Virus record (IMG/VR): IMGVR_UViG_3300006920_005275
Location: 1-20,001 of that record
Strand: one strand, 5' to 3'
Length of the DNA: 20,001 nt
From: a virus
The notes under the pieces were generated by a model. That model had not been told where the DNA came from, ran no database searches, and was given only the letters and a program-made list of their open reading frames with translations. Made by a program: the position numbers and the translations under genes. Positions 413 to 18,554 of the stretch are shown here, piece by piece (within the stretch, counting starts at the first letter, position 1; every line of letters begins with the position of its first letter).

Positions 413-1338
413 TGATTGATTTTAAAGGTATTTGGTGTGAAAAGTACAGGCCGACAAAGCTTGATGATCTTATCTTAGATGAACAATCTCTTCGAGTTGT
501 TAGTCAGTTTAAGGATGAAATACCTAACTTACTATTCACCGGTAATCCAGGTACAGGTAAGACGACCTTAGCTAGGATTATTGTTAATGATATATTAGGA
601 TGTAATTATCTTTATATTAATGCGTCAGATGAGTCAGGTATTGACACCATCAGACACAATATCACTAACTTTGCTCAGACCAAGTCATTCGACGGTGGCG
701 TTAAAGTGGTAATACTAGATGAGGCTGACGGTCTAACCTCTCAGGCACAGGGAGCATTGCGTAATACTATGGAGACGTACGCTAAGTACTGCCGCTTTAT
801 TCTTACTGCTAACTATAAGCATAAAATCATTCCTGCTCTACAGTCTAGGTGTCAATCACTTGATCTGAAGCCTGTAATTGATCAGGCTGTTAAGAGGTGT
901 TATAGTATTCTACAACAAGAAGAGGTAGTAGTATCAGATGTACAGAAGAAAGAGTTTGTAATGCTCGTTAAGAGGTACTTCCCTGATCTTCGTAAGACTA
1001 TTAACGAGTTGCAGAAGAGTGTAATTAACTCCGAGCTGCATATTACAAATAGTACTGCAGATGAAGCTCTACTTAAGTCGATCTTCGAAAAGATAGCTAC
1101 CGGTAAGTCATTAGAACTAAGAAAGCACTTAATTGAGAGTGAAGATAGGTTTCAAGGCGATTATGATACCCTTATGGCTAACTTTCTCGATCATCTATAC
1201 GAACAACCTATTGATGACATGAAAAAGAAAGAGATGATCACTATATTAGCTGATCATCTCTATAAAAGCGCGTTAGTACTGGATAAGGAAATTAACGCAT
1301 TTGCTTGTTGGGTTAATCTAGAGAGAGTATTGTCTTAA
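412..1338 (+). CDS. 44: Sliding-clamp loader large subunit (T4 gp44-like AAA+ ATPase)
   Basis: ATPase subunit that opens the sliding clamp and loads it onto primer-template DNA for the phage replisome. The 308-residue length is close to that of T4 gp44. The N-terminus carries the RFC-type WCEKYRPTKLDDL signature (residues 8-20). Walker A is GNPGTGKTT (44-52), Walker B is VVILDEAD (99-106), a sensor-1 type Asn lies in ILTANY (about 130-135), and the arginine-finger SRC motif is at 145-147. The C-terminal third should be the helical collar domain. The start ATG overlaps the stop of the preceding ORF (TAATG); no good Shine-Dalgarno sequence is visible, so coupling is likely. The expected partner, the small subunit gp62, does not follow: the next gene is convergent and overlaps the last 21 bases. 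Strong family call. Confidence 0.95.
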   Translation: MIDFKGIWCEKYRPTKLDDLILDEQSLRVVSQFKDEIPNLLFTGNPGTGKTTLARIIVNDILGCNYLYINASDESGIDTIRHNITNFAQTKSFDGGVKVVILDEADGLTSQAQGALRNTMETYAKYCRFILTANYKHKIIPALQSRCQSLDLKPVIDQAVKRCYSILQQEEVVVSDVQKKEFVMLVKRYFPDLRKTINELQKSVINSELHITNSTADEALLKSIFEKIATGKSLELRKHLIESEDRFQGDYDTLMANFLDHLYEQPIDDMKKKEMITILADHLYKSALVLDKEINAFACWVNLERVLS

Positions 1339-1650
1339 GTAAGCCTCACACTGCTCATTAAAACGCGTACCTGTTGATTTCTGTGTTGTTGCTGCTTGCT
1401 TTATAGTCCGTGCACCTTTAACAGCTAGCTTTCTAACAGGCTTAGCCTTAAAGATCTTAATTACATCGGCAAACGGAACCATAGAAACAGCGCTTATACC
1501 AGCGTTAATAAGATGCTTCTTCTTACTATCCTTTTCGTCAGCCGCTGCAGCTCTTAAAAGAGATATAACAGCGTTTGCACCATCTGCAGCTGTACCTATA
1601 GTAGGTTCAATACCTGCGACATCTAAAGCTGCTTGTACTTTATCTAACAT
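1318..1650 (-). CDS. Small protein with pretoxin-like hydrophobic hairpin, unknown function
   Basis: A 110-residue ORF reading leftward from ATG at 1648-1650 to TAG at 1318-1320; the last 21 bases overlap the end of the clamp loader gene on the other strand. Residues about 8-32 (LDVAGIEPTIGTAADGANAV and following) and about 49-65 (NAGISAVSMVPFADVIKIF) resemble the paired 'LD..G..P.IG...D..NA.I' and 'A..S..AMVPF' helices of pretoxin domains in bacterial polymorphic toxins; related stretches also occur in phage structural proteins. No toxin domain follows, only a basic tail. Between the two segments lies a charged patch (DEKDSKKKH). It is the second gene of a two-gene minus-strand unit, 5 bases after the 196-residue ORF, with its own Shine-Dalgarno sequence. 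The family resemblance is from memory of the pattern; function is not assigned. Confidence 0.72.
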   Translation of the reverse strand: MLDKVQAALDVAGIEPTIGTAADGANAVISLLRAAAADEKDSKKKHLINAGISAVSMVPFADVIKIFKAKPVRKLAVKGARTIKQAATTQKSTGTRFNEQCEAYLRQYSL

Positions 1651-7007: not shown

Positions 7008-8168
7008 ATGCCTGGCTCACTTCCCATACCTGACCCGATCAGCAACCCACTCGTTTGTACGACGTCAACCGCGCCTGCATCAGTTACAGTCAGTAAAACA
7101 GACATATCAACGGGACCGTACTCTGAGGGAGATACTATAACATATCAGGTCGCTGTTACTAATAACAGTACAACAGATCTATCAAACGCGACACTTTTTG
7201 AATCTTTAACACCGATAACTATAACTAGTGACCCATTAGGTTTACTAACTGGTGGTGTTTGCATTAACGCAGGATTTACTTCTCTTATTACCTATGATTA
7301 CGTTGTTAAAGGTGCAGATTATACTGCTGGTGGTATTACAAACACCGCTACACTTACCTCACCAAGTATAAGTGAGCAGGCTTCATACTTTATTAATATT
7401 AATAATTCAGGTGTTATGAATATCGCTAAGAGTGTAACGTCAAATACAATCTATACCCTAGGTAGCACCATATCATATCGAGTAGATGTTTCAAACAGTG
7501 GTGGATCTAACGTAGACAATATTAAGGTTAGTGATATTCTTTCACCAATAACAGTTACAAGTGATTTATCCGGTATATTAGGTCAAGGTAGAACATTTAC
7601 ACCAGGTGCTGCGGCGACGGTTGAGTATAATTATATAGTGACAGCGTCTGATGTATTAAATGGTAATGTAAGTAACCAAGCGTCTATTACCGTACAAACT
7701 GGTGGTAATTTACCGTTTACGATTACTGACGAGACGGTGACACCGCTTGTCCCACCAGGTGAGTTTGCAGTCACCAAATCAACAGTAGGTACTGGACCAT
7801 ATGTGGTTGGTGATGAGATTGTTTATGATATATCTATCCTAAACCTCACACCTATTACAATTACTGACGTCTCTATTATTGACGACCTTACACCTATAAC
7901 ATACGTCTCTGGTACAAACGAACTACTCACAGGTAGTATTGATATAGCGCCAGCTGAGAGTTATTTTGTACGATATAAGTATCTAGTGACGCAGGGTGAT
8001 AACAATAGCACGCTCACTAACACTGCAACCTTAAGTACATCAAACTATGGCACAACAGTAGTAAGTGTAAGTTCTATAATTGATGATAACAGGTGGGAAA
8101 TTCAGGATACGTTCTGGGAGACTACTAGTACATATGATTGGGAAACATCATATGAAGATTTTAGTTAA
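7008..8168 (+). CDS. Three-repeat DUF11 surface protein with Trp/Tyr-rich tail
   Basis: A 386-residue protein made almost wholly of three DUF11-type Ig-like repeats, beginning near residues 26, 135 and 251. Each carries a '(S/G)TGPYxxG' turn or a variant (STGPYSEG 34-41; SNTIYTLG; GTGPYVVG), a 'D.L.PITxTSD..GLLTG' segment and a closing 'TNTATL' or 'SNQASI' strand. The last 27 residues are acidic and aromatic (four Trp, in RWEIQDTFWETTSTYDWE), unlike the repeats. No signal peptide, LPXTG or membrane anchor is seen, so export is not expected; it more likely belongs to the virion. DUF11 repeats are common in bacterial cell-surface proteins and here probably act as a spacer or a weak surface-binding element on the tail. 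The same repeat triplet recurs in the 761-residue protein at 16269. The repeat family is a confident call; the role is inferred. Confidence 0.82.
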   Translation: MPGSLPIPDPISNPLVCTTSTAPASVTVSKTDISTGPYSEGDTITYQVAVTNNSTTDLSNATLFESLTPITITSDPLGLLTGGVCINAGFTSLITYDYVVKGADYTAGGITNTATLTSPSISEQASYFININNSGVMNIAKSVTSNTIYTLGSTISYRVDVSNSGGSNVDNIKVSDILSPITVTSDLSGILGQGRTFTPGAAATVEYNYIVTASDVLNGNVSNQASITVQTGGNLPFTITDETVTPLVPPGEFAVTKSTVGTGPYVVGDEIVYDISILNLTPITITDVSIIDDLTPITYVSGTNELLTGSIDIAPAESYFVRYKYLVTQGDNNSTLTNTATLSTSNYGTTVVSVSSIIDDNRWEIQDTFWETTSTYDWETSYEDFS

Positions 8169-8207: not shown

Positions 8208-10766
8208 ATGGCGGATGAGAACTTAACAGGGTTAAAGATAAAAGATACGTATGAAGGCTTGCTGCATGTTGGTGATGGTGGATTATCCCCTAACGCGTCA
8301 ACAACAAAGCGTGTATATGATGGTTTCGGTGAAGAGACGGTATTAAACTTATCTATTCTAAATACTGCTGACCCACTATCAGGAATTGCTTCAGTTGATG
8401 GTACGCTTGAGGTAGGTGGTGAGTTACATCTTGACGGTCAAATGAGATATGGCTACGGTACACCTGCTACCGGTAAGGTTCTCACGTGTAGTGACGCTAC
8501 AGGTGAAGTTGTATGGGAGGAACCTACAGGTGGTATAAGTAGTGCTCCTAGTGATAAGGAATACGTCAGTATTTCCGGTACAGGTGGTGCAACAGCTTTA
8601 TCTCAAAATACAACTGGTGTATATACATATCAGATCAGCGACTTACAAGGAGTAGGTGTTGATAGTAGTAAGATACGTGGACTTTATATTAGATGTAAGG
8701 GCAGAGCAAGTGATGGTGGTGCTACTATAAATGCTACGCTACCAGATGACATAAATACATTGCGACCGTTTTTTCAGACTAGTGAGATCAATAATATCGT
8801 TGGTCATGATTTTATAGAGTTAATTCGGTTTTTACCTATTAATAAGTACCAACCAAGTTTTAAACTTGATATTATTTCGGATGGAGTAGATTATATAGCG
8901 TATGAGATTTTAGGTGCTGAGCAGTTTATTATAGGTGCTGAGAGTGGTACAGGTGATAAGGAGTATGTTGGTCTTACTGGTGGTACTGTAAATCTACAGC
9001 AATCCTCAACCACAGCCGAACCTGGCATTAACTATAATGTGGCTGACTTTACTGGTCCAGGTCTAGAAGTAAGTGATATTAGAGGTATATATGTAAGGGT
9101 TTATGGTGAATATCTATCAGATAGTGGTGTTACATTTTTTAGCACTATGCCAGATGGTTCTACAGAAGAGATTGCACAGTTTGATGGTCAGACTAGTGCC
9201 GGTACCGGTGTTGGTTCAAAGTTAGTATTTATACCTATAAATAAAAATCAATCTAATGTGACTCTATCTACTCTCATCAATAATCAAGGTAGCACACGAA
9301 CGTGGAGTTGGAATATTTTAGGTGCAGAACAGATTACATCTGGCTCCGGGACTGATATTAATGCACAGTTAAGTATTAGTATGGCTCAGGGTAGACCCGC
9401 TACGACAGCTGAGATGGGTACAGCCGCCACAACCGGTTATCAATATGTTGATTTAAATCAACCAGGGTTATTAAATCAGGGAACCAACACCGGTAGGGGT
9501 AACATATTAGCACGTGACGGTGTGTTTGACCCAAACGGTGGTCCGATTCTTATACAGGTTGCTTATGCACATCACGGTGATACTACTAATGGCGGTGCAA
9601 TAGATCAGGCAATTGCTAGGGTCTTTAAAAATAACGTCAATGGAGATCCGACGAAAATTATTGTAGAGTGTTCTAACTCACCAAAAGATGCTAGTGGTAG
9701 ATTGAATGCATACTTTAATATCACCGCTGTACAGCACGGTGGACCTGGTGGTGGTGTAGGATCTTCACTTATTAAGTATGGTGAAATAGATGCTGGTAAC
9801 ATTGGAGTAGTCGCTCCAAACCCAGTAACAAGAGGGGATTTTACAACCACTGTCATTTCGAATAGCATTGCAGGTGATACTCATGATACTACCTTTGAAT
9901 GTGTATTTAATACATCACTAGCTAACGATAATTACAGCGTGATGTTTGAAATAATTTCAAAAGGTCCTGATATTAATAAAGATAATAATTTGAAAACACC
10001 CGTTGTTTTCAATAAGACAGCGGCCGGCTTTAGGTTTAATGTAGAAGAGGGAGCTGTCAGTAATGTTGGTAACAATCAAATCAACGTACGTGTTGAGTCT
10101 ACTATACCGGTACCAGCTCAAGGCATTAGTATTAATGAGTTATTTTACCCCACTTTTGCAAAAATGGAGTTAAATTCAGGGTCAGCTAGGTATGGTGTAA
10201 GTAAGTGCTCAGGGCAAAGTGTGATAACTTTACCTTCTACATCTGTTGGGGATGCATCCTTAGCTATGAGTGTTGGTACATTTACAGTAGCAGAAGTTAA
10301 TACATGTATGGCACAAAACGTGAATGGTATCACAAGTGGTACTAACAAGTGCTTAGTCTTCCCTGCAAATGTAAAAGTTAGTTTGGTTTTTTCCGGGTTG
10401 ATTGATTTTGCAGGCAGTACTACACAACGGCGAGGTGTAGCTTCATTACCATGTTTAATGAATACAACTGGAGCAAACGCTTCACCCTCTGGCGCTTTAC
10501 CCGGTTATAGTGTATTTACTGGCAGCGTCGCACCACTCTATGTAACACGGAGTCGAGATGGTGATTTTAGCTTTTCATTCAACACAGGTGACCAAGGCGC
10601 AAAGTTAGCAATTATCAGTCGTCAAGGAAACGCGGAGAGCAGTCCCGGAGTAATGTATAATGGTGCTTATGGAACTTTTAGCCTTAGAGATTGGGGCGTA
10701 GGTTATGACCGCGGAGCCATTAATCTGGATTGCTTTATTAAATCGGTGACGATTAAAAGTAGCTGA
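8208..10766 (+). CDS. Modular tail fibre protein (852 aa)
   Basis: A long, beta-rich, Gly/Thr/Asn-rich protein typical of phage tail fibres. Order of parts: an N-terminal segment with 'TYEGLLHVGDGG' and 'RVYDGFGEETVLNLS' (to about 50), shared with the 225-residue fibre at 10811; a connector ending in GKVLTCSDATGEVVWEEP, a common fibre-stalk motif; two tandem copies of a roughly 127-residue domain (116-241 and 250-376), each closing with 'ILGAEQ'; a domain at about 395-515; a module at 518-631 shared with the 1153-residue fibre; and a unique C-terminal domain (about 640-852) with four spaced Cys and the end 'DRGAINLDCFIKSVTIKSS', a likely receptor-binding head. I see no chaperone or peptidase domain. 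The N-terminus is probably the attachment end, inferred from its sharing between fibres. Confidence 0.85.
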   Translation: MADENLTGLKIKDTYEGLLHVGDGGLSPNASTTKRVYDGFGEETVLNLSILNTADPLSGIASVDGTLEVGGELHLDGQMRYGYGTPATGKVLTCSDATGEVVWEEPTGGISSAPSDKEYVSISGTGGATALSQNTTGVYTYQISDLQGVGVDSSKIRGLYIRCKGRASDGGATINATLPDDINTLRPFFQTSEINNIVGHDFIELIRFLPINKYQPSFKLDIISDGVDYIAYEILGAEQFIIGAESGTGDKEYVGLTGGTVNLQQSSTTAEPGINYNVADFTGPGLEVSDIRGIYVRVYGEYLSDSGVTFFSTMPDGSTEEIAQFDGQTSAGTGVGSKLVFIPINKNQSNVTLSTLINNQGSTRTWSWNILGAEQITSGSGTDINAQLSISMAQGRPATTAEMGTAATTGYQYVDLNQPGLLNQGTNTGRGNILARDGVFDPNGGPILIQVAYAHHGDTTNGGAIDQAIARVFKNNVNGDPTKIIVECSNSPKDASGRLNAYFNITAVQHGGPGGGVGSSLIKYGEIDAGNIGVVAPNPVTRGDFTTTVISNSIAGDTHDTTFECVFNTSLANDNYSVMFEIISKGPDINKDNNLKTPVVFNKTAAGFRFNVEEGAVSNVGNNQINVRVESTIPVPAQGISINELFYPTFAKMELNSGSARYGVSKCSGQSVITLPSTSVGDASLAMSVGTFTVAEVNTCMAQNVNGITSGTNKCLVFPANVKVSLVFSGLIDFAGSTTQRRGVASLPCLMNTTGANASPSGALPGYSVFTGSVAPLYVTRSRDGDFSFSFNTGDQGAKLAIISRQGNAESSPGVMYNGAYGTFSLRDWGVGYDRGAINLDCFIKSVTIKSS
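8553..8930 (+). repeat. Tandem domain repeat, copy 1
   Basis: Encodes residues 116-241 of the 852-residue fibre. Landmarks are DKEYVSISG, then SSKIRGLYIRCKG, INATLPD, INKYQPSFKLDI and ILGAEQFI. It is followed closely by copy 2 and is recognisable at protein level; the DNA has diverged apart from short stretches. Confidence 0.75.
8955..9335 (+). repeat. Tandem domain repeat, copy 2
   Basis: Encodes residues 250-376 of the 852-residue fibre. Its landmarks parallel copy 1: DKEYVGLTG, VSDIRGIYVRVYG, FSTMPD, INKNQSNVTL and ILGAEQIT. Confidence 0.75.
9759..10100 (+). repeat. Module shared with the 1153-residue fibre, copy A
   Basis: Encodes residues 518-631 of the 852-residue fibre: GSSLIKYGEIDAGN ... 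RGDFTTT ... FECVFNTSL.N.NY ... KTAAGFRFNVEEG ... INVRVES. The matching stretch is at 14953-15285. By eye about half of the residues are identical. Confidence 0.82.
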
Positions 10767-12564: not shown

Positions 12565-15500
12565 ATGGCTAAAAAAATTGAAATTCTAGAAAATACTCTA
12601 TTAAAGCTCCTCGTACGTAGAGGTACTGATACTGATAGACGTAATATTTCCCTATCTGAGGGTGAGCTTGGTTATACGACTGATACAGAGCGATTGTTTA
12701 TCGGTAATGGTCAGCCTGGTGGTGTTGTTGCTGGTAATAGATATCTAGGTTCAGACAGTGACCCATCTGCTACGTTTACTACAGCTTTAACTGGTGATTT
12801 AGTGTTTGACACAAATACTAAGAGCCTATGCGCGTTTAAGGGATCCGGTACATGGGAGAGAGTATCATCTCTTACTGAAAGTACTGGTGATATTGATGTT
12901 TCTGTTGATGCTGGTGATATACTTTCAAATGCATGTGGACGTAACTTAAGTATAGATACTAACGGTAGAATACAGACAAATACTGCAGTAGTCTTTAATA
13001 AAATTAACACTGCTGGCTGGGCTTATTTAAATATACCACGTAAAGTTAGATTTTACGACGGTTCGTCTAGTGAGGCGTTTACCTTCCCTACAAATGCGTT
13101 AGGTGGTAAGTATCTAAGAACAGACGCTAGTGGTGTCCTTACGTGGGAAGACCCAGTTGGTGCTGCGGAGTTCTTCTATAACAGTGAGAATGGACCTATT
13201 CCAGTTGGTGCTGTTTTACCGTTTACTGCAGGTGGTGTTATACCAACAGGCTATATTGTTTGTAACGGGCAAGAAGTATCACAAACAACTTACTCCGATC
13301 TATTTGATGTTATTGGCACAAATTATGGAACAACAAACCCAGGTGCATCATTCAAAGTACCTGATTATAGTCTCAGCACTCTTTACGGTGTTAATTCAGA
13401 TCCACATAATGCACAAGTCTATAAAGTAGGTGCAGATGTTAATTTAGGTGGTGGAGCAAACTTCGGTACAGTGTGGACGGCGGGGCCCGGCAGTATTGGT
13501 CGTTTTGATGGTCCTAGTGGTGGTTTCCAGGCTCAAGCAACCACATATACTAATGACACAGGTTATTATTTAGTTATAAACGCGCAAGGCCAAAAAGACG
13601 GGCAAGACGCAATTACGGTCCGGGTTGTTCTAGGGGATGTTAACTACGGTACAACTATATATCAGAATAGTAACTTAACGCTTATTGGTGCTACAAACTC
13701 TGGTGGTGGGGTTTTAGGTACCGGTACTGTAATTATTCCACCAGGTGAAAAATATACATATTTCTTTCAAACCGGTGAGCGAACAGGTTTGACTTCTTTC
13801 TATACCTGGGAGCTGAGAGGTCCCGCTAGCGGTGGTGGTAGTAGTGGCAGTAATACAACATACACAGGCTCAGAGTATGTTGCAATTGATGTAGGGGATA
13901 TAGACGGTACAACTGCTGACCCGGTACTTAAAAATAATACAAGCGACGACTGGTTCGTTACGACAGGTAGTAATTTATCATATAACCGCGCGATGTATAT
14001 TCGTAACTCGGATACTGATCCATGGTTAAATATACACCCTGCAGACGATGGGGATAGGGGGCCTTTTGTTGCTATCTTACAACCTGGCGCATCAATAGGA
14101 CATAGTGGTGGTTATACGGCTAAATACTGGGTACTAAAAGGTACAGCTACCACAACACCATCTACACAATCACCGTTAAGTGCGCAGGGTACGATTTACG
14201 TTATTAAAGCCATACCAGATACTGTTGCTAACCCAACACTGACGGTAGTCTCACCACTCACTGCAACAGTTGATGGTGTTAATAAGACAAATACAGCTTT
14301 CTCACCACTTGTAGGTGATATTGTAATTGGTCAGCCAGATGCTGCAGTAGCTGTACCGCCTGGTGTTGAGGCCTTTGATACTGCAGGTACTGATACATTT
14401 ACAACAGTAACTCGTTATACAAAGTTTTATGTAACTGGTAGTGGTAGTGGTGCGGTAAGGCACACCGGCGCTAGTGCTGGTACGTGTATTGGTTATTTAG
14501 ATTTACCGGTAGGCACGGTCTTAAATCTCACAGTTGGTGAAGGTGTAGGTTCAGATGTTACCACCGGCAATTACACGCAGATAGTGCATAACGGAACTGT
14601 GCTGGTTAGATCTGACGGAGCTGACCACCCAAACACAACCTCTAACACATTTAACTGGAACGCATCACCAAACACAGGCACGCTTAATACAGCATACACT
14701 GTTGCCGGTAATCAGGTAGTATCACAGGGCAGCTTTATTATACCAGGAGCATCGCAAGGAGTTGATGGTAATGGCGACAATGAGGAATCGGTTGGATCGG
14801 CTAGTTTTTGGGGAGCGTACCCCGCGGCTGGTTCTGGTATGCATGCAAACGGGGCAGGTAACAGCCGCCCTCCGAAAACCGCGGATGGTATAGTAATGTT
14901 TGAGTGGGTTGATACCGTTAGTGGTGGAGGTACAACTCAAGTTACTGGTGGTGGTTCATCACTATTGAAGTATGGTACGATTGATGTTGGTAATCCAGGT
15001 CCAATAGCTGGTGGAAGTGTACCTACAACCGGCGACTTTACAACAATTGATTTAGGTACCGATGGTGCTAGTTTTTATGATATTTTTGAATGTACATTTA
15101 ACTCGTCTCTACCGAATAATAACTACAATGTAGTGTTTGAGCTAATATCTAATGGAAGTGTTAATGCTGATAATAATATGAGATATCCTATTATTACGGA
15201 AAAAACAGCAGCCGGGTTTACGTTTAGTATAGAAGAAGGTACTACTGCAGTGCAGGACCTAGAAATTAACGTACGTATCGAGTCTAATCAGGCAAATGCC
15301 GTTATCGCTGATCAAAAATGGGAAGCTGTTACAGACGGTACATATGATTTCGATCAAGCTAGTAATCTAGAAACATCAGTGTATACCAATAGTACAGGCT
15401 CACCACTAGTTATTAGGGGACAATTTGCAAAGATAGCCGTTGGATCGGCGGATGATATTAATCTAGCAGCTCATATAACACACGCCGGTGAGACTACACA

Positions 15501-16026
15501 TGTATCGGTACCTTTTGCTACAGAAATTGGCTTCCAAGAACCAACTGGTTACTCGACTGTTGTTGGTGATATAACAATACCAGCTGGAGCCACGTATAAA
15601 TTTGTAAGAACTACTACTAACTATACTAACTTATACTGGTTTAAGATGACTACTACTGCTGTCGTTGGTGGTGTTGGTGGTCTTAAAGACCCAAATCACA
15701 GTGGTGGTACAATTAATGTCACCACATCTTTCCAAGACTTAGACCTCAGTAGTATTGTCGGTAGTAATAAAGCGCAGGTTACGATGGAAGTATATGGTGG
15801 TAGTACTGGTGTTGGAACGCTTTTCCGTACAAAGGGCTCAGTAATTGAGCGATTTGCTGTTGGCACGAGCGCGGGTTGGGGCTCTAGTGGAGTAACACCA
15901 GGTCCAACTGATCAGGGTGGAGTTGTAACTTTAACTACAGATTCAAATGGTGTGGTTCAATTTAATGGAGCTGGTACATCTACCGGTGTTAACTACAAAG
16001 TACTTACTTACCAGGTTATATCGTAG
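12565..16026 (+). CDS. Giant modular tail fibre with Mtd-like N-domain and internal collar domain (1153 aa)
   Basis: The largest protein in the window. The Mtd-like N-terminal domain (RRGTDTDRR 18-26; EGELGYTTDTERLFIGNG 32-49) is shared with the 350-residue fibre. A stalk connector, GKYLRTDASGVLTWEDP, ends near 200. A phage tail collar domain lies at about 209-270 (IPVGAVLPFTAGG, GYIVCNGQEVS, YSDLFDVIGTNYG, FKVPDYS), internal rather than terminal. Three beta domains of one apparent type follow, interrupted by a Gly-rich domain (about 610-785) ending GIVMFEWVD and by the module at 797-907 that is shared with the 852-residue fibre. The C-terminal part (about 1035-1153) is a further beta domain ending in LTYQVIS. 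This mosaic suggests growth by domain shuffling. The role is probably receptor binding by a long side fibre; the receptor is unknown. Confidence 0.86.
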   Translation: MAKKIEILENTLLKLLVRRGTDTDRRNISLSEGELGYTTDTERLFIGNGQPGGVVAGNRYLGSDSDPSATFTTALTGDLVFDTNTKSLCAFKGSGTWERVSSLTESTGDIDVSVDAGDILSNACGRNLSIDTNGRIQTNTAVVFNKINTAGWAYLNIPRKVRFYDGSSSEAFTFPTNALGGKYLRTDASGVLTWEDPVGAAEFFYNSENGPIPVGAVLPFTAGGVIPTGYIVCNGQEVSQTTYSDLFDVIGTNYGTTNPGASFKVPDYSLSTLYGVNSDPHNAQVYKVGADVNLGGGANFGTVWTAGPGSIGRFDGPSGGFQAQATTYTNDTGYYLVINAQGQKDGQDAITVRVVLGDVNYGTTIYQNSNLTLIGATNSGGGVLGTGTVIIPPGEKYTYFFQTGERTGLTSFYTWELRGPASGGGSSGSNTTYTGSEYVAIDVGDIDGTTADPVLKNNTSDDWFVTTGSNLSYNRAMYIRNSDTDPWLNIHPADDGDRGPFVAILQPGASIGHSGGYTAKYWVLKGTATTTPSTQSPLSAQGTIYVIKAIPDTVANPTLTVVSPLTATVDGVNKTNTAFSPLVGDIVIGQPDAAVAVPPGVEAFDTAGTDTFTTVTRYTKFYVTGSGSGAVRHTGASAGTCIGYLDLPVGTVLNLTVGEGVGSDVTTGNYTQIVHNGTVLVRSDGADHPNTTSNTFNWNASPNTGTLNTAYTVAGNQVVSQGSFIIPGASQGVDGNGDNEESVGSASFWGAYPAAGSGMHANGAGNSRPPKTADGIVMFEWVDTVSGGGTTQVTGGGSSLLKYGTIDVGNPGPIAGGSVPTTGDFTTIDLGTDGASFYDIFECTFNSSLPNNNYNVVFELISNGSVNADNNMRYPIITEKTAAGFTFSIEEGTTAVQDLEINVRIESNQANAVIADQKWEAVTDGTYDFDQASNLETSVYTNSTGSPLVIRGQFAKIAVGSADDINLAAHITHAGETTHVSVPFATEIGFQEPTGYSTVVGDITIPAGATYKFVRTTTNYTNLYWFKMTTTAVVGGVGGLKDPNHSGGTINVTTSFQDLDLSSIVGSNKAQVTMEVYGGSTGVGTLFRTKGSVIERFAVGTSAGWGSSGVTPGPTDQGGVVTLTTDSNGVVQFNGAGTSTGVNYKVLTYQVIS
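14953..15285 (+). repeat. Module shared with the 852-residue fibre, copy B
   Basis: Encodes residues 797-907 of the 1153-residue fibre: GSSLLKYGTIDVGN ... TGDFTTI ... FECTFNSSLPNNNYNVVFEL ... KTAAGFTFSIEEG ... INVRIES. It is paralogous to 9759-10100, with local DNA similarity around the conserved words. Confidence 0.82.
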
Positions 16027-16045: not shown

Positions 16046-16258
16046 ATGCTATCGAAGGCAAAAGCTTACGTTCTATTAGAGGAGTTCACCGACTTTGTCT
16101 TAGTTGATGAGACCAGAGATAGTATTGTTGTTAGTGTAGAGAAAGAGTACTTAAAAGTAATTAACTACGAGTTAAGGAAGTTTAGATATCAGCTGGTTCA
16201 TAAGTCAGTAGTAGGTGACACTGATTCTTTTACTTTAGTTTTCATGCTGAGGGATTAA
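16046..16258 (+). CDS. Small protein of unknown function within the fibre array (70 aa)
   Basis: A 70-residue, mixed-charge protein with the look of a compact alpha/beta fold: a hydrophobic N-terminal stretch (AYVLLEEFTDFVLVDE), a strand (SIVVSVE), a basic helix (KVINYELRKFRYQLVHK) and a final strand (SFTLVFML). There is no signal peptide or membrane segment. I recognise no family. The 5-base spacing after a TTAAATA motif and the tight fit between two large surface-protein genes argue that it is a genuine late gene. Small proteins in such positions can be fibre assembly factors or adaptors, but the sequence gives no direct evidence for that. Confidence 0.75.
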   Translation: MLSKAKAYVLLEEFTDFVLVDETRDSIVVSVEKEYLKVINYELRKFRYQLVHKSVVGDTDSFTLVFMLRD

Positions 16259-16268: not shown

Positions 16269-18554
16269 ATGGATTATCCTACCAATTTACCAGTTGACGC
16301 AGCGTCTGTTAATATCAGTGACGGTGAGTTCTCACCTTTCTTTGATATAGTATGGTCGATTAAGTATGAGATTGTAAATTGGAACGGTGCTGATGAATAT
16401 GGTCTTTGTTTCTTTCTTCAAGACTCTAGTGTCCCTATAGAAGGTGGCGGACGTGGTATTGATCTCGGTTATTCAGGCACCTCAACATCAGTACCCGGGT
16501 TTTCATACGCGAGAGGTATGACTGGCGGTGTTATAGGTATAGGTCTAGATACAAGAGGTATGTTTGCAGCGAATACAGTATGGCCTGGAGGTGAAACAAG
16601 ATCAGGTTTAAATGATGTAGAGCTACTACCAAACTCGATTACTGTTAGAGGTGGTGCAGCAGATAATTATGCTTTTGTACAGACAAGTGGTATTGGAGCG
16701 TTTAATCTGCTAAGTGATGGTGTAAAGATTTTAAGAGCTCGACTTGGTAATTACGGTAGAACACTTTACTTAGACTATAGAGGTGCGGGTGATACTGATT
16801 TTGTTAACATACTTACACAGGATGTAGATCTAGATATAAGTATGGGAGATAGGCTCACGCCAGGTGTTTCGTTTGCAAAACCACTAAACTCAACCTCTAC
16901 ACTTAACATTAAAGTTGATACGTTTCATGTTGAGGGTAAGGACGATGATCCGGTAGTTTCACAAGAGTATCCCGAGCCGCTCGAGCCATTAGACTGTACT
17001 ACACAATTTGTAGGTAATACCATTGACCCAGCACCTACAGGTGATATAGTTACTTCGGATATTCCTACTTTAGTTATGTGTAATCCTCCGAATCCGGGTG
17101 ATATTATTGTTAGAAAGACAGTTACCTCAACCGGACCGTATGAACTTGGAGATACAATTGACTATAAAATTGTAGTAACTAGTGATGGTGAATATCCACT
17201 ACAGAACGTTACCTTAACCGATACAATACCTGCTTCACGTCGACAGAATACTGTTGATAGCTATGGATTGTTCACCGGCAATAAGGTACTAGCACCTGGT
17301 CAAAGTGAGGAAGTTACATATTCTATTACTGTTGGTATAAGTGATGGATTTAGTATAACAAATACAGCAAAGGTTACAACTGGTATTGGCGTTCAGGGTG
17401 AGAGTACGATTACAGTACAGACAGTAGCAGCCAAGGATCTTATTATCACCAAGGAGCTATTGTCAACAGGTCCATATGAAATTGGGCAGGATATTCTTTA
17501 TAAGATCGTAGTCAGTAACCCAAATACAGTGCCTATTACAAACATACAACTTACAGATACATTACAGCCCAATATTACAGTAACTAGTGATGTTGACGGT
17601 CTGTTTGCTGGTAATGTAACTATCGCTAATGGCGCTTCTGCAGAAGCTCAGTATACATATACTATTGTAAATGCAAGCACGGTTAACAATGTAGCGTGTG
17701 TTGATTCTGAAATCGGAACATTCTGCAGTACTTCTATCGCAACACCTATTACTCCACGTAAGAGACTTCTTATCTCGAAGGTAGTAACATCCACCGGGCC
17801 ATACGAGCAAGGTGCTCCAATAGAATATAGTGTGTCTGTAACGAACCCGAACTTCTCACCACAGAGTGATGTTTATCTTACTGATACACAGAGTTCTGAA
17901 ATAACAAATATCGTTGATACAAATAACCTGTTTACTGGTACGACAATACCTGGTAATACTACATATACAGCAACCTATGATTATGTTATACCGAATAATA
18001 ATGGAATAGATGTGGTTAACACTGCACGCGCATCGTGGCCGGGTGACTCGATTACAGCATCTGTAACGGTACCAACCAAGATATCAGTATGCATATATGT
18101 ATCTTTCTGTGATGAATCAAATAGTTCAAGTACTAGTAATCACTACAGTGGGTTCGAAACGTTTAGGATACGTAATCCAAAGAGCCCGTTCTTTATTATG
18201 CAGCAGAACGATCAGAACCTTAACGATCTCAGACTACCCTCCAACTTCACTGCAGATAGTGATGCAAGTGTAGTTAGAATAACGAAAAACAGAACAGAAG
18301 ATTGGTTTGGGATGCTAAGTCTAGATAAGTATGGTCCTAACTCAAAGGTATACTTTGCTGTAGATAACTCTGGTAGCTTTACTAGAGCACAGCTAACAGG
18401 CAGCACTCACGGTAGTAGTTGGTCTCAGTTCCAGGCGGACGTAATCACTGCCTTTGGAACACCTGTAAATGATCTTGGTAACTTTACTGACAATGAGAAC
18501 TGGATAGGGAACTTTGTAGGTCAGAGATGTGACATTGATATTACAATACCGTAG
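16269..18554 (+). CDS. Lectin-like adhesin with three DUF11 repeats (761 aa)
   Basis: Predicted surface adhesin of the virion. The N-terminal region (about 1-225) resembles an L-type lectin / concanavalin-like jelly roll: EYGLCFFLQDSS (the 'dGfaFvlq' strand), a Gly-rich GGGRGIDLGYSG loop, GGVIGIGLDTRGMFA (compare 'vaVeFDTygN'), and KILRARLGNYGRTLYLDYRG (the 'v.I.ydg.t.Ltvyl' strands). A linker with Cys residues follows (about 226-277). Three DUF11 repeats start near 278, 390 and 499, each with STGPYE(L/I/Q)G. The C-terminal domain (604-761) is unrelated, contains FRIRNPKSPFFIMQQNDQN and ENWIGNFVGQRCDI, and is of unknown type. The DUF11 triplet is paralogous to the 386-residue protein. The lectin call is from pattern recognition only, without a search; carbohydrate binding is inferred. 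Confidence 0.82.
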   Translation: MDYPTNLPVDAASVNISDGEFSPFFDIVWSIKYEIVNWNGADEYGLCFFLQDSSVPIEGGGRGIDLGYSGTSTSVPGFSYARGMTGGVIGIGLDTRGMFAANTVWPGGETRSGLNDVELLPNSITVRGGAADNYAFVQTSGIGAFNLLSDGVKILRARLGNYGRTLYLDYRGAGDTDFVNILTQDVDLDISMGDRLTPGVSFAKPLNSTSTLNIKVDTFHVEGKDDDPVVSQEYPEPLEPLDCTTQFVGNTIDPAPTGDIVTSDIPTLVMCNPPNPGDIIVRKTVTSTGPYELGDTIDYKIVVTSDGEYPLQNVTLTDTIPASRRQNTVDSYGLFTGNKVLAPGQSEEVTYSITVGISDGFSITNTAKVTTGIGVQGESTITVQTVAAKDLIITKELLSTGPYEIGQDILYKIVVSNPNTVPITNIQLTDTLQPNITVTSDVDGLFAGNVTIANGASAEAQYTYTIVNASTVNNVACVDSEIGTFCSTSIATPITPRKRLLISKVVTSTGPYEQGAPIEYSVSVTNPNFSPQSDVYLTDTQSSEITNIVDTNNLFTGTTIPGNTTYTATYDYVIPNNNGIDVVNTARASWPGDSITASVTVPTKISVCIYVSFCDESNSSSTSNHYSGFETFRIRNPKSPFFIMQQNDQNLNDLRLPSNFTADSDASVVRITKNRTEDWFGMLSLDKYGPNSKVYFAVDNSGSFTRAQLTGSTHGSSWSQFQADVITAFGTPVNDLGNFTDNENWIGNFVGQRCDIDITIP

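Follow-up and report, generated by a model that had tools for sequence, protein, structure and literature searches.

Several described systems come close to the gene analysed here. L-type lectins (PF00139, PF18483, the Emp46p/ERGIC-53 type and the M. jannaschii legume-lectin domain of PDB 7elv) have a canonical Ca/Mn and sugar site with the metal-site pattern E-x-D-x-[YWF]-x-N, and DUF11 (B_ant_repeat) modules, represented by PF01345 and TIGR01451, are repeats of cell-surface proteins. In phage T4, Hoc combines an array of Ig-like repeats with one conserved domain and is located on the capsid. Concanavalin-like domains occur in phage tail fibres, for example in those of Acinetobacter phages (PMC11058221), and the host-recognition islands of marine phages are reported to include lectin-like proteins (PMC3909814); for L-type lectins in phage tail fibres, we found no report in the openly accessible literature. 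The gene described here encodes an N-terminal domain with a predicted L-type-lectin fold, followed by DUF11 repeats and a separate C-terminal domain, and the lectin-fold domain is a conserved, previously unnamed module present in dozens of related uncultivated T4-like phages.

The window, by which we mean the whole 20,001-bp IMG/VR virus record that was analysed, has the gene content of a T4-like phage: a clamp loader and, upstream of the adhesin gene, baseplate proteins of the gp25 and gp6 types, a gp10-C protein and fibre proteins carrying Mtd_N or tail-collar domains. Its cultured relatives are distant: the gp6 matches, mostly from Synechococcus phages, reach at most 30% identity, and the clamp loader is matched at about 40%. 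The adhesin gene is an intact ORF that starts 10 bp after a 70-aa ORF and lies within a tail/baseplate-fibre cluster whose synteny is kept in relatives. The parts of the locus are as follows.

16046..16258, plus strand: s70, a small conserved ORF of 70 aa directly upstream of the adhesin gene
16269..18554, plus strand: the whole adhesin gene, 761 aa (predicted L-type-lectin-fold domain, linker, three DUF11 repeats, C-terminal domain)
16269..16961, plus strand: N-terminal domain, residues 1-231, with an L-type-lectin fold as predicted by AlphaFold2 and a Foldseek search of the PDB; strands at residues 13-222
16962..17093, plus strand: linker, residues 232-275, matching no family
17100..17381, plus strand: DUF11 repeat 1, PF01345 above cut-off
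17436..17708, plus strand: DUF11 repeat 2, PF01345 above cut-off
17769..18035, plus strand: DUF11 repeat 3, divergent, singly below cut-off; E 7.6e-4 in the genome search
18087..18551, plus strand: C-terminal domain, residues 607-761, the most divergent part of the protein, with no Pfam match

Scanned as a whole, the 761-aa protein matched Pfam DUF11 (E 7.5e-17; 62.1 bits against a curated cut-off of 24.6) and DUF7507 (E 4.3e-17), as well as the DUF11-type repeat model TIGR01451 of NCBIfam (E 1.5e-12; 47.3 bits against a cut-off of 24). It had no PHROGs match at E 0.1 and no Pfam fibre domain; residues 1-231 belong to no family in Pfam, PHROGs or NCBIfam, and no Pfam family was found for the C-terminal 155 residues. 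An initial annotation of this DNA had proposed an ORF with a lectin-like domain, three DUF11 repeats and a separate C-terminal domain. The observation is confirmed for the ORF, and the distinct C-terminal part is borne out; as for the repeats, when they were scored one by one, repeats 1 and 2 (E 1.6e-10 and 2.3e-7) exceeded the Pfam cut-off, and the third was weak and fell below it (DUF7507 E 0.002, DUF11 E 0.022). All four motifs quoted in that annotation (GLCFFLQD, GGGRG, GVIGIGLDTRG and YGRTLYLDY) occur in the protein, and their occurrence is not due to chance because they are located in conserved stretches of the 31-member family described below. Its placement of the protein in a phage-tail setting agrees with the gp25, gp6, tail-collar and Mtd_N neighbours, and we consider its reading of the protein as adhesin-like to be right.

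Relatives of the protein are hard to detect. Scans with the single sequence returned only one relative, a 770-aa protein with the same architecture and an identical sequence on three contigs (L004/L010, on a 55.6-kb contig), which is the nearest relative of the whole protein, and a two-sequence alignment used as a query added no others. The family was found via a degenerate DNA pattern for GRT[LI]Y.DYR, which picked out 31 viral stretches, all 31 of which contained a protein matching the lectin-domain profile with an E-value of at most 7.2e-22. An alignment-based scan extended this set to 42 loci with flanks, representing 31 distinct full proteins, including that of the window, plus L091. No family member was found in the cultured phages of INPHARED and no relative in GTDB genomes, and a tblastn search of the phage collection for DUF11 gave no match.

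Each of the 31 phage records contains exactly one copy of the lectin domain. In 28 of the 31 distinct proteins, the domain begins within residues 1-3; it is internal in L054, L055 and L068, and in L091 it follows about 1000 residues with leucine-rich repeats. An N-terminal position, which the initial annotation had called unusual, is thus the family norm. What is attached to the domain varies: three DUF11 repeats, repeats rich in proline, serine and threonine, a segment with a weak trypsin-like match, leucine-rich repeats or an 'NFGYK' module. DUF11 is present in only two of the 31 family records, those of the window and of its nearest relative. Five distinct proteins consist of the lectin domain alone or nearly alone, and in four of these five cases the 'NFGYK' module, which is C-terminal in other members, is encoded by a separate downstream gene, which suggests that genes were split or fused and that the two parts work together.

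Some arrangements stand apart. In L054 (8144-12241) and L068 (8753-11707), the lectin domain lies between Pro/Ser/Thr/Val repeats of 400-600 residues (PSVTPT-like). The 1368-aa phage protein of L091 (6902-11008) contains leucine-rich repeats, an MBG domain and, at its C-terminal end, the lectin domain. In L055 (9065-11338), the domain is preceded by about 300 residues that contain GDSGSP; their trypsin-like match (E 0.035) is weak and was not relied on.

The fold of the N-terminal domain was predicted by AlphaFold2 from an alignment of 31 sequences (the window protein and 30 IMG/VR homologues). The resulting model of residues 1-231 (pLDDT 83.9, pTM 0.85) is all-beta with eleven strands; an earlier model derived from a two-sequence alignment (pLDDT 27) was set aside. 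In a Foldseek search of the PDB, all 50 of the matches listed were legume or L-type lectins, with peanut lectin as the best of those listed (E 5.7e-8) and soybean agglutinin, Emp46p and 7elv (TMt 0.61) also among them. The TM-scores to PDB lectins are moderate, about 0.5-0.6, and therefore point to the same fold and a remote kinship with L-type lectins. Sequence profiles give a weak, independent pointer to the same family: HMMER matched the profile to 7elv at E 0.45, and a pairwise hhalign comparison with 7elv gave E 0.0006 over DIVWSF...GGxGxDLGYSG, which spans the first core strands. Pfam lectin models matched none of the family members scanned, and PF18483 matched neither the window nor 15 family records, although the controls were detected. 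Weak matches to PDB porins (E 0.3-1), which were confined to a single G-x-D-x-x-G-L-F stretch, were rejected. The predicted model therefore supports an L-type-lectin fold for residues 1-231, in keeping with the concanavalin-like N-terminus that the initial annotation had read from the sequence: the structure search returned a jelly roll nearest to L-type lectins, with no LamG domain among the listed matches.

The canonical lectin site was located on the family by hhalign profile alignment and strand order, and the equivalences below hold to the extent that this alignment does. Three stretches of the domain are of particular interest.

16443..16478, plus strand: GGGRGIDLGYSG, residues 59-70, the putative counterpart of the glycine-rich stretch that follows the first core strand in lectins
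16536..16565, plus strand: GIGLDTRGMF, residues 90-99, matching the legume-lectin metal strand VAVEFDT; G92, D94 and G97 invariant in 31 members
16725..16781, plus strand: conserved hairpin KILRARLGNYGRTLYLDYR, residues 153-171, with predicted strands at 152-160 and 165-171

By hhalign, DEYGLCFFLQD aligned to the lectin ADGLxFFL and VIGIGLDTR to the metal strand VAVEFDT; both HMMER and hhalign aligned the glycine-rich stretch to GGTGGDLGYGG of 7elv, and in this stretch Y68 is invariant and L66 and G67 are nearly invariant among the 31 members. The alignment would place Y44 of the window protein at the loop-A Asp, G92 at the metal Glu, D94 at the metal Asp, R96 at the aromatic and M98 at the Asn position. 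Throughout the family, only the metal Asp is kept (31 of 31). The metal Glu position is Gly in all 31 members, position 44, the Asp of A-D-G in lectins, is A, F, L, G, Y or E and never D, the aromatic position is mostly Thr, otherwise R, N, H or L, and the Asn position is L, C, S, V or another residue. The phage family thus departs from E-x-D-x-[YWF]-x-N, and the sugar-binding surface that the initial annotation had expected is not supported for the known kind, since Y44, G92, R96 and Leu, Cys or other residues replace the canonical site. Judged by its site residues, the domain is unlikely to be a lectin of the canonical type. The lack of the lectin sugar-binding surface, which the initial annotation had named as a refutation of its proposal, thus applies to the canonical site, whereas a rewired site keeps some probability.

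The family has a conserved set of its own, part of which lies elsewhere in the domain. Y68, D94, G97, N122, R127, R156 and G163 are invariant in the 31 members, and R111, K153, R158, N161, T165 and D169 are nearly so. Several of these residues belong to the hairpin, which has the family consensus RARLGNxGRTxYxDYR and lies outside the canonical sugar site; K153, R158, N161, T165 and D169 are each present in at least 29 of 31 members, and Y167 and R171 in 27 of 31. As R156 and R158 on one predicted strand and T165, Y167, D169 and R171 on the adjacent one alternate, these residues would be expected to share one face of the hairpin.

The domain and its attachments have different histories. Distances between pairs of lectin domains follow the primase distances with r = 0.84, as do those of the structural protein p33216 (also 0.84); the values for the fibre Mtd350 and the collar-fibre N-terminus are 0.35 and 0.47, respectively. 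Given the non-independence of the pairs, all of these correlations are descriptive. When the window is compared with its nearest relative, identity is 65% in the lectin domain, 36% in the linker, 38, 45 and 34% in DUF11 repeats 1, 2 and 3, and 32% in the C-terminus, compared to 70% for baseplate gp6, 59% for s70 and 35% for a DUF11-only protein. The lectin domain is inherited like the core genes, and the parts attached to it are interchangeable.

The small gene s70 accompanies the lectin-domain gene. A homologue of s70 adjoins it in 38 of the 40 loci with readable upstream DNA (L087 and L091 have no s70; L090 ends at the contig edge), at a gap of 4-17 bp except for one annotated overlap. The two genes stay paired although the position of the p33216-p36650 block changes: it precedes them in most relatives and follows them in the lineage of the window. 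For s70 itself, a KOW-like match (E 0.0055) fell below the cut-off and was given no weight. The number of T4 late-promoter octamers (TATAAATA) in the window is that expected by chance (three found, 2.9 expected).

The surrounding cluster has features of its own. A second window protein (7008-8168), also in the baseplate/fibre cluster and absent from the initial annotation's account of the adhesin, consists almost wholly of three DUF11 repeats (7089-7358, 7419-7697 and 7770-8075), and its counterpart in the relative is a two-repeat version (L018:1265-2014). The same relative encodes a 1108-aa protein (L018:16650-19976, contig 36650-39976) with a conserved N-terminal part, two DUF11 repeats and a von Willebrand A domain (E 4.3e-7), an unusual mix for a phage structural gene. 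The fibre genes at 8208-10766 and 12565-16026 of the window and at 23824-27360 and 28411-30585 of the relative's contig have blocks of ~115-140 residues in common, but in a different order, which suggests module shuffling among fibre genes. Between the clamp loader and a 196-aa ORF, the window contains a 110-aa ORF (1318-1650, minus strand) without a counterpart in the relative; as the flanking genes abut there, this ORF is possibly an insertion.

Combining these findings, we favour, at about an even chance, a virion-associated modular adhesin whose lectin-fold part is a constant core or docking module. Residues 1-231 would be an L-type-lectin jelly roll in which the canonical Ca/Mn and sugar site has been lost and which most likely docks the protein onto the baseplate or tail, the array of three DUF11 repeats would form an Ig-like stalk, extended and displayed on the surface by analogy with bacterial examples, and the divergent C-terminal domain would be the probable tip that contacts the host. 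A core that is present once per phage, inherited vertically and strongly conserved, and whose attachments can be exchanged, behaves more like a holder than a hand, and it is on this basis that docking is preferred to glycan binding by a rewired site. Vertical inheritance and conservation would, however, also be compatible with binding of a ligand common to all hosts; the domain has no known tail-attachment motif, and the 300-1000 residues that precede it in L054, L055, L068 and L091 make a simple N-terminal anchor awkward. The less probable account, to which we nevertheless give real weight, is that the domain is a true lectin that recognizes a cell-surface glycan through a rewired site in the canonical loops or close to them and provides initial reversible adhesion, while the C-terminal part adds specificity. 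The predicted fold, the high conservation around the glycine-rich stretch and the metal strand (including D65, Y68, D94, R111 and N122), where legume lectins have their ligand site, and the lectin-like proteins reported from marine phage host-recognition islands (PMC3909814) are consistent with it, as are the five standalone relatives, according to which the domain can therefore act without a fused tip. Against it stand the replacement of the sugar Asp, the metal Glu, the aromatic and the Asn of the canonical site, the separately encoded 'NFGYK' module in four of the five standalone cases, and the expectation that a receptor-facing domain should diversify and recombine as Mtd350 does, which the lectin domain does not.

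Two further readings carry less weight. A decoration or accessory protein located elsewhere on the virion (on the head or whisker-like) and not on the tail would account for the Hoc-like layout of a repeat array and a conserved domain and for the lack of any matching fibre family, but it is improbable, as fibre genes of the tail-collar and Mtd_N kinds immediately precede it in the window and in almost every relative and no family member convincingly matches a PHROGs head family. That the N-terminal domain is of a LamG- or glucanase-type concanavalin-like fold, or not a jelly roll at all, its likeness to lectins being superficial, would suit the absence of sequence-family matches, including the silence of PF18483 in 15 family records. 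We regard this as very improbable given that LamG and glucanase structures are both missing from the 50 listed matches and that the two profile comparisons with 7elv weakly favour an L-type lectin.

Returning to the docking reading, its evolutionary extension is tentative: this T4-like clade may have turned an L-type lectin into a docking module by losing its sugar and metal site, with the invariant RARLGNxGRTxYxDYR hairpin surface now holding the protein on the tail while stalks and tips (DUF11, LRR, Pro/Ser/Thr repeats, protease-like) are swapped. If true, the change from sugar binding to virion docking would clearly exemplify how a lectin can be put to new use as a structural socket, and the likely place of the host-recognition determinants could be read from the border between the constant core and the exchangeable tip. 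The domain family is absent from Pfam, PHROGs and NCBIfam, serves as a marker for a clade of uncultivated T4-like phages and offers a handle on how these phages hold their host-recognition proteins.

Compared to known systems, the phage domain resembles L-type lectins in its predicted fold and strand order, the G-x-x-F-x-L strand, the glycine-rich stretch and the metal-strand Asp, and differs from them in having no Pfam hit, in the replaced site residues and in a conserved set of its own (R111, N122, R127, R156, R158, N161 and D169). A clear member by structure is UniProt A0A6J7XBQ8 of BFVD, an unnamed and uncharacterised 315-aa protein of an uncultured Caudovirales phage (26% identity, TM 0.77 on the query, E 1.5e-15). 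The adhesin shares its repeats with DUF11 cell-surface proteins, but here they sit on a phage structural gene, in a small minority of the family. The likeness to T4 Hoc is an analogy of how the parts may work, drawn from layout, and Hoc is a capsid protein. The concanavalin-like domains of tail fibres (PMC11058221) likewise place a beta-sandwich in a phage adhesion gene, whereas the domain described here is nearest to L-type lectins in the fold search, conserved, single-copy and co-inherited with core genes.
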